Program-made: the position numbers and the translations under genes
DNA from: Caecibacter massiliensis
GTDB lineage: Bacteria; Bacillota; Negativicutes; Veillonellales; Megasphaeraceae
Direction of reading: 5' to 3'
Assembly: GCA_900095875.1 (NCBI GenBank)
Contig: LT608311.1
Span: forward strand, 1,364,001 to 1,428,000
DNA length: 64,000 nt
In this document: positions 53,410 to 58,790 of the stretch, in pieces
Numbering within the stretch: position 1 is the first letter of the stretch
Layout: the number at the start of each line of letters is the position of its first letter
Notes under the pieces: generated by a model
The model's input: only the letters and a program-made list of their open reading frames with translations
What the model was told of the DNA's origin: nothing
Databases searched by the model: none

Positions 53410-53449
53410 AAAAACCCTCTATTCCATGTATACTGGATAGAGGGTTTTT
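53410..53449 (+). terminator. Terminator of MFS5
   Basis: Stem AAAAACCCTCTAT / ATAGAGGGTTTTT. Confidence 0.93.
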
Positions 53450-53530: not shown

Positions 53531-53575
53531 TGTTACAGGCCTGTTTAGGTTTTGTTTAGATAGAAGCTGTATACT
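53531..53575 (+). promoter_or_regulatory. Triple direct repeat (PhoP/PhoB-type box) and promoter of the Arn-like genes
   Basis: TGTTAC (53531-53536), TGTTTA (53542-53547) and TGTTTA (53553-53558) are spaced by 5 bases each (11-base period). An 11-base gap and the -10 TATACT (53570-53575) follow. TGTTTA-N5-TGTTTA 11 bp before a -10 is the layout of PhoP-activated promoters in enterobacteria; there is no independent -35. Confidence 0.65.
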
Positions 53576-53609
53576 GTCACTATATAGGATACAGTGGGAG
53601 GAAATGAAT

Positions 53610-55286
53610 ATGAATTGTGCCATACGGCGTCATCAGCGTCTGATTTTTTTTGTTTTATTGTTTGCTGCGGTTTTCCTGTACCTGGCTCATATTGGTTCCT
53701 ATCATCTGATTGAATTAGATGAGGGAAGATATCACCGGGTAGCCATGGAAATGGTTCTTTCCGGCGATTACATTACGCCTCATTTTGACTATATGCCGTA
53801 TTTTGAAAAACCAATCTTTCAGTATTGGATAACGGCTCTTTCCATGGAACTCTTTGGTTTCCGCGAATTTACGGGACGTGTCCTGCCGGCCCTTTCGGGA
53901 TTGGGGAATGTCCTGCTGGCCTTCTGGCTTGCCCGGGTAATGTACAACCGTCGTACGGGCGTTATGGCGGCCGTCATTCTGGCAACGTCAGCATTGCAGC
54001 TCATCGTCGCTTCCATCGGTGTCCTCGACATGGCGCTGACTTTTTTTATTGATGCCTGCCTGGTCACCTTTTATGTATTTGAGAGAACGGAAAATAAGAA
54101 ATATCTGCTGCTATTTTATGCATTCATGGGGTTCGGAATGTTAACCAAAGGGCTGATTGCCATCGTGTTTCCCTGCGGGATTATTTTTTGGTATGCCCTT
54201 TGTACGAAACGGCCCCGCCTGTTCCTGAAATTGTTTTATCTGCCGGGAATCCTGCTGTTCCTTGTCATCACTGTGCCGTGGTATTATATGGTATGCCAGC
54301 GGAATCCTGACTTTTTTTACTTTTTCTTTATCCGTGAACACTTTCTCCGCTTTGCTACCAAGATGCATGAACGGTTTCATCCCTGGTATTATTTTGTGCC
54401 GGTCCTGCTGGCTGGCACGATGCCCTGGACCGGATTTTTATTGACTTTTTTCAGCAAAAAAGGCATCCTGCGCCGGCCGGGTACCCTGCGGCATCGGCAG
54501 GATATTTTGTTCCTCGGACTTTGGGCAGGCCTTATTTATGTTTTTTACAGCATTTCTGATTCCAAACTGCCGACCTATATTCTTCCCTGCTGGCTGCCGT
54601 TATCGGTCCTTCTGGCAGCATCACTGGAACGGTGCCGGAGAGAAAAAGACTGGCTATGCCACAGCTTTTTTGTAAACTCCGTGCTCTGTTTGTTATTTAC
54701 GGCTGGCGGGATTGCCTATCTCATGCATACGGATTTCCTGACTGTGCCAGATTTCCTGAAAAATGGCGGCCTGCTCATCGCGTCCCTTCTTGCAGGTACG
54801 CTGGCAGCCTGCTGGTCTTATAAAAAGCGCCGCAGTTTCTTTGCTGTTTTCCTGATTCTAAGCTGTATGGCCTATGGCTTCGGACTTGGCGCCCATCAGG
54901 TGCAGGGGCAGATCCATGATCACCAGTCAGCTTATCAGGTCAGCCAGGATATTAAGACTCTGCATCCGTCGGAAGATACGCCGATTATTATGTACGGTTC
55001 TTTCATTCCGGGGCTGGTATATTATCTGGACCGGCCCGTGGCGGCTGCCAATTTTATGGGTGAACTGGAGTTCGGCATTCACCATACGGATCGTACGGGG
55101 ATGTATTATGGCAGTAAGGAACTGTATGATGTCTGGCATAGCAGCCAGCCGGTCATTGTCGTAGTACAGCCGAAATACCTTGAAGAGGCACTGAGTGTCC
55201 TTGACGGGAATATATACCAGCGTATGGAAGAAGAGGATTATACCGTATTGATTAACCGGCCGTTGAAAGAGGGCGTATTGCCATGA
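53610..55286 (+). CDS. GT39-type glycosyltransferase, ArnT-like
   Basis: 558 residues from the ATG at 53610 (GGGAGG 8 bases upstream; ATG 53604 is too close). About eleven membrane helices. The first periplasmic loop has the DEGRYHRVAMEM motif of ArnT/PMT-fold lipid A glycosyltransferases, then GVLDMALTFFID and FGMLTKGLIAIV. Would transfer a sugar from an undecaprenyl-phosphate donor to lipid A or another envelope target on the periplasmic side. Overlaps the donor-making ArnC-like gene by 4 bases. Other Arn sugar-synthesis genes (arnA, arnB, arnD) are absent here, so the sugar is unknown. Confidence 0.87.
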   Translation: MNCAIRRHQRLIFFVLLFAAVFLYLAHIGSYHLIELDEGRYHRVAMEMVLSGDYITPHFDYMPYFEKPIFQYWITALSMELFGFREFTGRVLPALSGLGNVLLAFWLARVMYNRRTGVMAAVILATSALQLIVASIGVLDMALTFFIDACLVTFYVFERTENKKYLLLFYAFMGFGMLTKGLIAIVFPCGIIFWYALCTKRPRLFLKLFYLPGILLFLVITVPWYYMVCQRNPDFFYFFFIREHFLRFATKMHERFHPWYYFVPVLLAGTMPWTGFLLTFFSKKGILRRPGTLRHRQDILFLGLWAGLIYVFYSISDSKLPTYILPCWLPLSVLLAASLERCRREKDWLCHSFFVNSVLCLLFTAGGIAYLMHTDFLTVPDFLKNGGLLIASLLAGTLAACWSYKKRRSFFAVFLILSCMAYGFGLGAHQVQGQIHDHQSAYQVSQDIKTLHPSEDTPIIMYGSFIPGLVYYLDRPVAAANFMGELEFGIHHTDRTGMYYGSKELYDVWHSSQPVIVVVQPKYLEEALSVLDGNIYQRMEEEDYTVLINRPLKEGVLP

Positions 55287-56227
55287 AGCGTATAGACATT
55301 CTCGTACCCTGCTACAATGAAGAAGCAGTACTCCACCAGTTTTATGAACGGACCAGCTCGGTTCTGGAACAGATAGAAAATTACCAGTTCACTTTTATCT
55401 TTGTCAACGACGGCAGCCGCGATCGTACAATATCGATTATCCGGGAGCTTTATGAAAAAGACGCCCGCGTTTCTTATATTTCTCTATCCCGTAACTTTGG
55501 AAAGGAAGCGGCTATGCTGGCTGGTATGGATTATGCTGATGGCGATGCCCTGGTCATCATGGATGCTGATTTACAGGATCCGCCGGAACTTCTGCCGGAA
55601 ATGATTGCCTGGTGGGAAAAAGGATACCGTGATGTCTCAGCCCGCCGCCGCTGCCGGGAAGGAGAAACATTTTTCAAAAAATGGTCGAGCCACGTATATT
55701 ATAAATTGTTGAAAAAACTGACGTCCGTTCCCGTTCAGCAGGATGTGGGCGACTTCCGCCTTCTGGACCGCCGCTGCGTCCAGGCTTTGTGCAGTCTGCG
55801 GGAATGTCAGCGCTATACCAAAGGGCTTTTCAGCTGGATCGGTTTTGAAAAGAAAGAAATTCTCTTTGATCGTCCGCCCCGGGCCGCGGGCAAAACGAAA
55901 TGGAATTACTGGCAGCTTTTTAACCTCGCTGTAGATGGCATTACCAGTTTTACGACGGCCCCATTGCGGGCGGCTTCTTTTGCAGGCTGTCTGCTGGCCT
56001 TTCTGGCGGCTTTATATATGTGTTTCATCGTCGTACGTACACTCGTACACGGCGGTGATGTAGCCGGGTATCCGTCCCTTATTTCGGTCATCTTGTTTAT
56101 CGGCGGCGTACAACTCATGTTCATGGGAATTATGGGGGAATATATCGGCCGTATTTATAATGAAAGCAAGGGCCGCCCGCCTTATATAGCAGAGGAAAGA
56201 GGCGTAAAAAGAAAAGAGAAATCATAG
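55283..56227 (+). CDS. GT2 glycosyltransferase, ArnC/DPM1-like, membrane-anchored
   Basis: 314 residues. GT2 domain (VPCYNEEAVLHQFY, FVNDGSRDRT, IMDADLQDPPEL), then two C-terminal membrane helices (about residues 230-290). Such enzymes load a nucleotide sugar onto undecaprenyl phosphate; the product would be used by the ArnT-like enzyme just upstream. Its ATG overlaps the ArnT-like stop (ATGA), so the two are translationally coupled. Confidence 0.9.
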   Translation: MKRIDILVPCYNEEAVLHQFYERTSSVLEQIENYQFTFIFVNDGSRDRTISIIRELYEKDARVSYISLSRNFGKEAAMLAGMDYADGDALVIMDADLQDPPELLPEMIAWWEKGYRDVSARRRCREGETFFKKWSSHVYYKLLKKLTSVPVQQDVGDFRLLDRRCVQALCSLRECQRYTKGLFSWIGFEKKEILFDRPPRAAGKTKWNYWQLFNLAVDGITSFTTAPLRAASFAGCLLAFLAALYMCFIVVRTLVHGGDVAGYPSLISVILFIGGVQLMFMGIMGEYIGRIYNESKGRPPYIAEERGVKRKEKS

Positions 56228-56290: not shown

Positions 56291-56316
56291 AAACCGCCTC
56301 ACGGGCGGTTTCTTTT
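56291..56316 (+). terminator. Terminator of the Arn-like operon
   Basis: Stem AAACCGCC (56291-56298) / GGCGGTTT (56304-56311), then CTTTT. Confidence 0.8.
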
Positions 56317-56396
56317 ATTTTCCGCGGCAAACATGGTACAATACAACTAGTATGTATCCAAGTCCGCCCTGGCAGACGAGAAAGAAGGGGACCGCC

Positions 56397-58790
56397 ATGA
56401 TCGATAGAGATAAGTTGAAGGACATTCTGACTGAATATAAAAGGGATTTTCCCCAGCGCTGGCCGTTGGAAAAGTATAAGTGGGAAGCTGTGCGCTGTTT
56501 TCAGACGGCATGGGACTTTACGGCCCGGGATTTTGAAGAAATGTTTACGGCTGCTACGGCCCGGACAAAGGATTTGCTTACGTCGGTTAATTATTATCCC
56601 CGCGGGGTTATGCGTGGCTTTGCGGCCGTCAACCGGGATGCGACCAAGGCTATGTTTTCTAATCTTTTTGACGAAAAAAAGGACCTGGCGGTCCGCGTAG
56701 AACGGTTCCGGGAAGATGCCGAACATATCCGGCGGGAATATGGGGAAGGCATCTGGAAGCAGCATTATCAGAAATTGAACGCCATCAGTACGTATTTGTG
56801 GCTCCGTTATCCCGACCGGTATTACCTGTACAATTATTCCGATTGCCGTGTCGTAGCGAAAGAACTTCATAGTTCATTTATGCCTCACCGCGGTGCTCAT
56901 GCAGGAAATCTCATCGGTGCCTATGGCCTTTTTGATGAAATCTGTGATGCCATTCAACAAGACAGCGAACTGCAGACGGTGTACAGGGCGCAGCGCCATG
57001 ACAACTGCTGGGCTGACACCTCGTGCCATACGCTGACCGTCGACCTTTGCATGTATATCAGTCGTATTTATTCGAAAAAAGGCATCGGCAGTGGCGATCC
57101 GGACTGGCTGCCCATTGGGTACAGCCCGGAATTGTCTGTTCAGGACTGGGTCGCTTTATTGCAGGATGATGCCGTATTTACGGAAAGCAGCCTGGAAGTG
57201 ATGCGGCGGTTCCTCGATTTTGGAGGAATGGCAACATGCCGGCAGTTGGCCAATAAATATGGTGAGCCTAAAAATTTTTATAATTTCTGTTCTGTTTCCC
57301 TGGCAAAACGGGTAGCGGAAAAAACGGATTGCAACGTCCTGACTACAGAAGACGAAAGCGCCAAATGGTGGCCTATTTTATACGTGGGAAAGATAGATGA
57401 ACACAATGCCGATGGCGGATATATCTGGAAATTGCGGGATGAACTGGCAGAGGCCCTGCAACAGGTCGATTTGTCGCGGGTAAATTTATATGCGCATGTA
57501 TCGCTTCCTGAAGGAAGGCATGCGGCCTGGTGGTTTAGTGTCAACCCCGTGTTGTGGAGCTTTTCTTCTATGGGCATAGGGGAACCGCGCAGCTTTTCCC
57601 TGTATAATGAAAACGGCAATAAGCGGCGCGTTTTTGAAAATTTCCTGGCTGCACGAAGCGGGGACTTCCTTATTTGTTATGAATCATCGCCGGTGCGCCA
57701 GATTGTAGCTATTGGAAAAATTGTCAAAGAAAGCGACGGTGAAAATATCTATCTGGAAAAAGTGGAAGGTCTGGTACATCCTATTGGATATACGGCAGTG
57801 CAGGCTGTGCCAGAGCTCCGGCGGATGGAATATTTTGAAAATCCCCAGGGAAATTTATTTAAATTGACCCGAAGTGAGTATACGTCTATCATGGATCTTA
57901 TCCGTGATGAAAACCCGGTGGATCACCAACGGGTGGTTAAGCCTTATACCCATGATGATTTTATCCGGGAAGTCTATATGAGCCGTGGCCATTTTGCTAC
58001 TCTCATTTCTCTTTTGAAGCATAAACAAAATATTATTCTGCAGGGGGCCCCCGGCGTGGGTAAGACCTACACAGCACGGCGCATTGCTTATGCGATGATG
58101 AGAGAACGGGATGACAGCCGCATTGAATTTGTCCATTTTCACGAAAGCTTTGGGTACGACGACTTTGTGGCAGGGTATAAACCTCAGGATACAGGCTATG
58201 TGTTCCGGTACGGCATTTTTTACCGGTTCTGCCAGCGGGCCGCCAATATGCCAAACAAGCCTTTTTTCTTCATTATCGACGATATCAACCGGGGGAATAT
58301 CAGCAAAATTTTTGGCGAATTACTGATGCTCATTGAAAAACCATACCGCGGTACATCTGTAACCCTTTCCTGCAACGGAATGCCTTTTTCTGTACCGAAA
58401 AATATATATATCATCGGTATGATGAATATGGCGGATACGGTTTCCATCCGCGATTATATCCTGCGCCGCCGCTTTGGATTTTTTGAACTGATTCCCGAAT
58501 TTGATTCTGATGGATTTCAAGAGTATATGAAGAAGCTCGATAGTGATACATTTACGGCCTTGATTACCCGCATAAAAAAACTCAATGCAGAGATTTCCGA
58601 GGATCCCCGGCTGGGACGGGGCTTTTGCATCGGTCATGGGTATTTCTGTGGTCAGACGGAATATACTGAAGAATGGCTCATGGAAATCGTCGATTATGAA
58701 ATCATGCCACTTCTTTTAGAATACTGGCCGGACAAGCCTGATAAAGTGCGGCATTGGGGACATGTTCTGCGCAGTGTATTTTATGATTGA
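56397..58790 (+). CDS. McrB-like AAA+ ATPase with EVE-like domain, no McrC partner
   Basis: 797 residues from the ATG at 56397; the upstream 15 codons lack a ribosome site. Residues 1-400: unrecognised helical N-terminal region. About 405-500: a PUA/EVE-like segment (SGDFLICYESSPVRQIVAIGKI ... VHPIGYTAVQAVPEL), the kind of domain that reads modified bases. About 520-797: AAA+ motor with Walker A GAPGVGKT (550-557), Walker B IIDDINRGN (about 625-633), and MMNMADTVSIRDYILRRRF, the counterpart of the McrB NTAD guanine-specificity motif. Probably senses modified nucleic acid. The McrC nuclease is missing on both sides. Flanked by an IS-like scar. Confidence 0.8.
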   Translation: MIDRDKLKDILTEYKRDFPQRWPLEKYKWEAVRCFQTAWDFTARDFEEMFTAATARTKDLLTSVNYYPRGVMRGFAAVNRDATKAMFSNLFDEKKDLAVRVERFREDAEHIRREYGEGIWKQHYQKLNAISTYLWLRYPDRYYLYNYSDCRVVAKELHSSFMPHRGAHAGNLIGAYGLFDEICDAIQQDSELQTVYRAQRHDNCWADTSCHTLTVDLCMYISRIYSKKGIGSGDPDWLPIGYSPELSVQDWVALLQDDAVFTESSLEVMRRFLDFGGMATCRQLANKYGEPKNFYNFCSVSLAKRVAEKTDCNVLTTEDESAKWWPILYVGKIDEHNADGGYIWKLRDELAEALQQVDLSRVNLYAHVSLPEGRHAAWWFSVNPVLWSFSSMGIGEPRSFSLYNENGNKRRVFENFLAARSGDFLICYESSPVRQIVAIGKIVKESDGENIYLEKVEGLVHPIGYTAVQAVPELRRMEYFENPQGNLFKLTRSEYTSIMDLIRDENPVDHQRVVKPYTHDDFIREVYMSRGHFATLISLLKHKQNIILQGAPGVGKTYTARRIAYAMMRERDDSRIEFVHFHESFGYDDFVAGYKPQDTGYVFRYGIFYRFCQRAANMPNKPFFFIIDDINRGNISKIFGELLMLIEKPYRGTSVTLSCNGMPFSVPKNIYIIGMMNMADTVSIRDYILRRRFGFFELIPEFDSDGFQEYMKKLDSDTFTALITRIKKLNAEISEDPRLGRGFCIGHGYFCGQTEYTEEWLMEIVDYEIMPLLLEYWPDKPDKVRHWGHVLRSVFYD

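Follow-up and report, generated by a model that had tools for sequence, protein, structure and literature searches.

The DNA analysed here, hereafter the window, is a stretch of 64,000 nt from the 2.65-Mb genome of Caecibacter massiliensis (labelled G000 below; GCA_900095875.1, contig LT608311.1, positions 1,364,001–1,428,000 of the forward strand). It carries a two-gene operon on the forward strand, the first gene of which (53610..55286) encodes an ArnT-like GT-C glycosyltransferase of 558 aa, termed ArnT1, that scores over the Pfam cut-offs for both PMT_2 and Arnt_C. ArnT1 matches the solved ArnT structure 5EZM with an E-value of 2e-60, retains the DEGRY and YFEKP motifs, and is 25% identical to E. 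coli ArnT over 557 aligned positions; its score against the NCBIfam ArnT equivalog is 259 bits, under the cut-off of 567. The second gene (55283..56227), whose start overlaps the ArnT1 stop by 4 nt, encodes a GtrB/ArnC-like GT2 polyprenyl-phosphate sugar transferase (Pfam Glycos_transf_2). A terminator-like hairpin located by hairpin scan (56291..56311, forward strand) marks the end of the operon. On the upstream side, a terminator-like hairpin with a T tail (53410..53449, forward strand) follows an MFS transporter gene and sets the promoter described below apart from it; this hairpin was identified by direct reading of the sequence and is missing from the output of the scanner, which has a loop limit of 8. 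Downstream, positions 56367–58790 contain an McrB-like AAA ATPase gene (NCBIfam PRK11331, 243 bits, under the cut-off of 637), followed directly by an MFS transporter gene and not by McrC.

Between the upstream hairpin and ArnT1, three tandem half-sites are found on the forward strand with a period of 11 bp: a degenerate distal TGTTAC (unit 1, 53531..53536) and two TGTTTA hexamers (unit 2, 53542..53547; unit 3, 53553..53558), so that only two of the three half-sites are perfect. A gap of 11 nt (53559–53569) separates unit 3 from a −10 element, TATACT (53570..53575), and a ribosome-binding site, GGGAGG, is located at 53596..53601. The repeat ends 51 nt upstream of the ArnT1 ATG at 53610. The direct repeats are thus spaced one helical turn apart and the box, through unit 3, replaces the −35 element, as in the tandem boxes of the OmpR/PhoB family. 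A preliminary description of this DNA had placed three hexamers with an 11-base period 11 bp before a −10 element, and these positions are confirmed in the sequence.

The pair TGTTTA-N5-TGTTTA occurs once in the window, compared to an average of 0.015 copies per window in 200 dinucleotide shuffles, and the fuller pattern T[AG]TTTA-N5-T[AG]TTTA-N11-TATACT was absent from all 200 dinucleotide shuffles of the window. At the scale of the genome, the bare repeat with at most one mismatch was found at 9 places versus 17 for the reversed control, and a loose box followed by TANNNT at 7 versus 5; as neither showed a clear excess over the reversed control, both counts were dropped as evidence. The bare repeat alone is poor evidence in the genome, and the case is carried by conservation and gene context. 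The only other exact genomic copy of TGTTTA-N5-TGTTTA (G000:C2:1721253-1721269, minus strand; L002 and L102) is located upstream of, and points away from, a large gene resembling by eye a trimeric autotransporter adhesin, and has no matching −10 element at 8–12 nt.

Upstream of ArnT1, the box and −10 element are retained in 7/7 cases (the gene itself and six genus orthologs, the proteins being 62–80% identical), with 0–3 mismatches over 18 positions and the −10 element ending 29–34 nt before the start codon in all seven rows. In the three rows with 3 mismatches, both half-sites are perfect and the −10 element is weak. For every ArnT1 row, shuffled upstream regions equalled the observed match in 0/200 trials. 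The second fragment of a broken gene in G014 was left out of these rows. In four records from Megasphaera relatives, ArnT1 is 77–79% identical to that of C. massiliensis. Across 15 Megasphaera genomes, a 34-nt motif comprising the box and −10 element yielded 18 matches with at most one mismatch, compared to 5 for the reversed control, and 43 compared to 29 with at most two; the genomes are related, so these counts are not independent, and five of the genomes are 78–89% complete. Matches with at most one mismatch were present in 10/15 genomes and lacking in G001, G005, G010, G012 and G014, four of which carry only weaker boxes with 2–3 mismatches.

A logo was constructed from 36 boxes, hand-picked from the matches with no criterion applied to unit 1. 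Both unit 2 and unit 3 have the form T[AG]TTTA in this logo, and TATACT is the most common −10 element. In unit 1, T is kept at columns −9 and −8 in 86% and 92% of boxes, respectively, compared to 28–47% T at columns −14 to −10 and −5 to −3; the rows are related, so these percentages are not independent counts. Because these Ts are conserved even though unit 1 played no part in the selection, unit 1 is a real, if degenerate, third half-site, and the repeat is properly described as triple.

All 18 strong matches (at most one mismatch) in the genus stand before envelope or two-component genes. The boxed genes are ArnT1 (G000, G006), a second ArnT-like gene termed ArnT2 (G002, G006, G008, G009, G013), epimerase-ArnT units designated SDR-ArnT2 (G007, G008, G011), a PepSY-type membrane protein (G003, G004, G011), the undecaprenyl-PP phosphatase UppP/BacA (G007, G008), an OlsG/PmtA-like lipid N-methyltransferase (G011, below NCBIfam cut-offs), an RND pump adaptor (G008, with the box 368 nt upstream of the gene) and a sensor kinase (G011). 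For the PepSY-type proteins of G003 and G004, which themselves match no Pfam family, the name was taken over from the similar protein in G011.

A tally of 35 loci was compiled, of which 29 were fetched by homology and six (L148, L155, L157, L158, L159, L162) were first noticed through pattern matches, the ArnT in four of the latter being also found by homology; the pattern-derived loci supply 3/4 SDR rows, 2/7 boxed PepSY-type genes, 1/9 ArnT2 rows and 1/2 boxed acyltransferase (AcylT) genes. The box precedes 9/9 operon-opening ArnT2 genes, 4/4 SDR genes located before ArnT2, 7/8 PepSY-type genes and 4/16 histidine kinase genes, and 3/143 other ORFs, one of these three being the methyltransferase. 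The reversed motif precedes 1/143 other ORFs and no gene in any other class. The ArnT2 label covers 22 genes, 13 of which were set aside (four as second genes behind SDR and nine within ArnT3 operons). Two of the remaining nine boxes are weak: that of G001 (1 mismatch in the box, 2 in the −10 element, gap of 8) and that of G004 (3 mismatches), where three tandem half-sites without a good −10 element are found just upstream. The PepSY-type count leaves out a G014 gene with a competing ORF and a frame that stops early (62 aa), which was named by its start only, and the single unboxed match, from G012, has 29% identity and may not be an ortholog. The zeros for ArnT3 (0/19), DedA (0/15), response regulator (0/12) and UDG-like (0/15) genes are weak controls, as these genes lie mostly inside operons.

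The box was rejected as a general marker of ArnT genes, as the AcylT lead genes of ArnT3 operons are boxed in only 2/12 cases. UppP and the RND adaptor were likewise rejected as genus-wide core targets, with boxes in 2/15 and 2/6 rows, respectively; the UppP rows exclude G012 (100 nt of contig upstream) and a 34% identical paralog in G005. The operon DedA-ArnT3(-ArnT)-UDG superfamily (L084, G000:C2:964500-969500; relatives L162 and L207–L219) is itself present in 15/15 genus genomes, is headed by an acyltransferase gene in 13/15, and is mostly without a box; the position of DedA (VTT_dom) next to ArnT suggests a role in carrier-lipid recycling.

In C. massiliensis itself, the box is convincing at three places: ArnT1, ArnT2 (with a gap to the −10 element of only 8 nt) and an RND operon encoding an adaptor and an AcrB-type pump, where the box has 2 mismatches. 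The remaining loose matches in this genome fall in coding sequence or before genes without an evident envelope role, such as an MFS-like gene and a methyltransferase-like gene. The expectation that the same box would recur before other envelope genes is thus borne out by only two further convincing cases in this genome and by many in the genus.

In 46 genomes from outside the genus, 18 matches with at most one mismatch were obtained, compared to 10 for the controls. Three of these, found in G015 and G016 of the sister genus, are part of the regulon described here; eight, from one genus of family 4, precede a gene for a PG_binding_1/3D-domain protein, three precede an IclR-type regulator gene, and four precede other genes, with one representative each of the PG_binding_1/3D and IclR-type groups checked against Pfam. 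For this reason no claim is made for an order-wide spread of the regulon. In seven genomes of the family-4 genus (L227, L228, L230–L234), a near-identical box, GGTTTATA[GA]ATTATTTA-N11-TATACT, precedes the gene for an exported protein in which PG_binding_1 and 3D domains were found in the one tested. This box possibly serves a separate cell-wall regulon that uses the same code.

The C. massiliensis genome encodes seven Trans_reg_C regulators. One of these belongs to a kinase-regulator operon (G000:C2 1,596,721-1,598,888; L083 3722-5889) divergent from ArnT2, and the intergenic region between ArnT2 and the kinase gene contains a perfect two-unit box. The candidate regulator (L083:5158-5886) matches both Response_reg and Trans_reg_C over the Pfam cut-offs and is 49–70% identical to its genus relatives. 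By manual reading of locus maps, ArnT2 or a PepSY-type gene is the neighbour of the kinase-regulator pair in 13/14 genus genomes with the regulator clade, own genome included; G012 is the exception. G010, which is without the clade (best match 38%), ArnT1 and ArnT2, has no box match with at most one mismatch. Kinases of the clade have a box of their own in G005, G011, G015 and G016. In the latter two genomes the regulator is 54% identical to the candidate, and the pair is flanked by divergent boxes, one facing a PAP2 phosphatase gene (with 1 mismatch in G015 and 2 in G016) and the other facing the kinase gene (1 mismatch each). No sensor domain was detected in the candidate kinase by Pfam, and its sensor half is unlike that of most relatives. 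In a regulator tree of 35 rows, a single clade of 25 (support 100/99) unites the candidate, the ArnT2-linked and PepSY-linked regulators and an orphan group, with a common recognition pattern of ATVxVHxNR[LI]R; G000_163k and others form long branches in this tree, and their placement is unsure. The suggestion of an OmpR-family regulator has thus gained a specific candidate, with a regulator operon that adjoins boxed genes in this genome and in most relatives, and the OmpR/PhoB-family regulator of this operon likely reads the box.

To account for the box, its conservation, the gene set it precedes and its linkage to the kinase-regulator pair, we propose that the box is the site of a phosphorylated OmpR/PhoB-family regulator, most likely that of the operon at G000:C2 1,596,721-1,598,888, which would activate the ArnT-GtrB operon; we assign this reading a probability of roughly three in four. 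Protomers would bind head to tail to two or three T[AG]TTTA half-sites on one face of the DNA, following the 11-bp period. The proximal half-site would stand in for the −35 element and the regulator would contact the sigma subunit of RNA polymerase at TATACT, in a class II activation of the kind exerted by PhoP at mgtA. The common regulon would respond to envelope damage by way of lipid-linked sugars and undecaprenyl phosphate. Binding, activation and the inducing signal are predicted elements of this model, and so is the attachment of a sugar other than Ara4N to lipid A or to a different acceptor in the envelope.

A different regulator of the same clade may instead read the box, for example the orphan OmpR-family regulator encoded behind a dacA-like gene (L043, G000:C2 about 1,663,129-1,663,842), acting alone or sharing the box with the ArnT2-linked regulator. 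The orphan falls within the 25-row clade and keeps the pattern ATVxVHxNR[LI]R, so the assignment within the clade is not unique and the orphan stays a rival reader. We consider it an unlikely one, as no box is present within the surrounding 3.2 kb, whereas the ArnT2- or PepSY-linked regulators adjoin boxes in this, the sister and other species. No kinase gene is seen as a neighbour of the orphan. Considerably less probable is an ordinary constitutive promoter, in which a T-rich stretch happens to form a repeat before a good −10 element. The lack of enrichment of TGTTTA pairs alone in the genome would fit such a promoter; against it stand the conservation of the box at all seven ArnT1 genes and across unrelated gene families, the failure of any shuffled upstream region to reach the observed match, and the 140/143 other ORFs that have no box.

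ArnT1 corresponds to the ArnT transferase of the Arn (Ara4N) pathway. The nearest solved structure to the GT2 transferase is GtrB sll0501 (5EKP, E = 1e-94), with ArnC at 1e-44; the protein is 29% identical to E. coli ArnC over 312 positions and is nearer to GtrB and PgfS. An ArnA-like formyltransferase was not found among the genome's two formyltransferase-domain genes, of 204 aa and 310 aa, which by eye resemble PurN and Fmt in length and in the first part of their sequence; E. coli ArnA, by comparison, has two domains fused in one protein of about 660 aa. ArnA appears to be absent from the genome, and because neither formyltransferase looks like ArnA, the transferred sugar is probably not Ara4N. 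With the partner being GtrB-like, a hexose or hexosamine linked to undecaprenyl phosphate is the likelier donor. Some ArnT enzymes transfer galactosamine, glucosamine or glucose, according to the available part of PMC8306577, and the available part of a Selenomonas paper (PMC13339959) cites another bacterium of the class whose lipid A contains galactosamine. Glucose would be neutral and an amino sugar positive, so the control of envelope charge put forward in the preliminary description is only partly supported; its ArnT assignment holds well, while the partner is closer to GtrB than to ArnC, and no ArnA-like protein accompanies them among the two formyltransferase-domain genes.

To our knowledge, outer-membrane regulation in diderm Firmicutes is largely an open subject. 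Judged by titles, the open-licence literature yielded no two-component system for LPS modification in Megasphaera or elsewhere in the Negativicutes. On balance we lean slightly towards the broader view of an envelope-stress regulon that arose in diderm Firmicutes separately from PhoP and shares its DNA code and promoter geometry; a PhoB/BasR-like regulator would read triple T[AG]TTTA repeats, and the PepSY-type protein may be an accessory sensor. If true, this regulon would link the transfer of lipid-linked sugars (ArnT, GtrB, epimerase) with the recycling of undecaprenyl phosphate (UppP, PAP2), would also take in lipid methylation, efflux and the PepSY-type membrane protein, and would be, as far as the literature search reaches, the first of its kind to be described in the Negativicutes. 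With the box defined and a regulator and a set of targets proposed, the question of regulation becomes directly testable.

Several known systems invite comparison. By profile, among the 25 shown of 95, and by solved structure, the candidate regulator is nearest to the VanR / RegX3 / WalR type, with none of the 25 profiles reaching its curated cut-off; regulators of this type have different targets. The PmrAB (BasRS) system resembles the one proposed here as an OmpR-family pair controlling ArnT, and among the four E. coli regulators compared only PhoB is nearer to the candidate than BasR (PhoB 36% identity, BasR 32%, CpxR 28%, PhoP 28%). The PmrA box, CTTAAG-N5-CTTAAG, differs from T[AG]TTTA. 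The ColRS/RaxRH operon of Pseudomonas and Xanthomonas is located beside ArnT or a divergent lipid phosphatase gene, as described in the accessible portion of PMC8306577. The present pair is similarly located beside ArnT, or divergent from the PAP2 gene in G015 and G016, and on both sides, as far as that portion covers it, ArnT occurs without a full arn operon. Of 11 kinases checked for the periplasmic Glu-X-X-Glu metal motif of ColS, 10 lack it, among them that of C. massiliensis, and its sole instance is at residue 192.

The closest resemblance in DNA code is to PhoP. The PhoP-box geometry claimed for this promoter agrees with the published one: in the sections of PMC3335776 available, the box of Salmonella architecture I promoters is located 12 nt (11 in yrbL) before the −10 element, and these promoters are predicted to be class II, as shown for mgtA. 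The E. coli phoP promoter, read directly, fits the same geometry. Within the scope of those sections, both systems have direct TGTTTA hexamers fitting (T/G)GTTTA-N5-(T/G)GTTTA, 11–12 nt to the −10 element, a class II layout and envelope targets, the gap before ArnT1 being 11 and not about 12 nt. The Yersinia box, given as TGTTTAW-N4-TGTTTAW in the available text of PMC2322996, has W after each hexamer, whereas the window box has G. The PhoP regulon uses two half-sites, the Megasphaera box three, and the Megasphaera targets are mainly ArnT, undecaprenyl-phosphate and PepSY genes, unlike the PhoPQ regulon. That a PhoPQ regulon responding to low Mg2+ was inherited or transferred is highly improbable despite the shared hexamer, N5 spacing, distance to the −10 element and similar type of target, as the regulator is nearer to PhoB and BasR than to PhoP and does not qualify as a PhoP ortholog among the four E. 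coli regulators compared, the kinase aligns with PhoQ over the kinase core only (residues 246–471) with no PhoQ-type sensor domain by sequence comparison, and none of the boxed genes examined was recognised as encoding an Mg2+ transporter. Of the two origins first offered, convergence or common descent, the former fits better, as a convergence inside the OmpR/PhoB family, because the candidate regulator is closer to PhoB and BasR than to PhoP. The same hexamer, spacing and distance, read by a predicted regulator from another OmpR/PhoB branch, suggest convergence on one promoter code.
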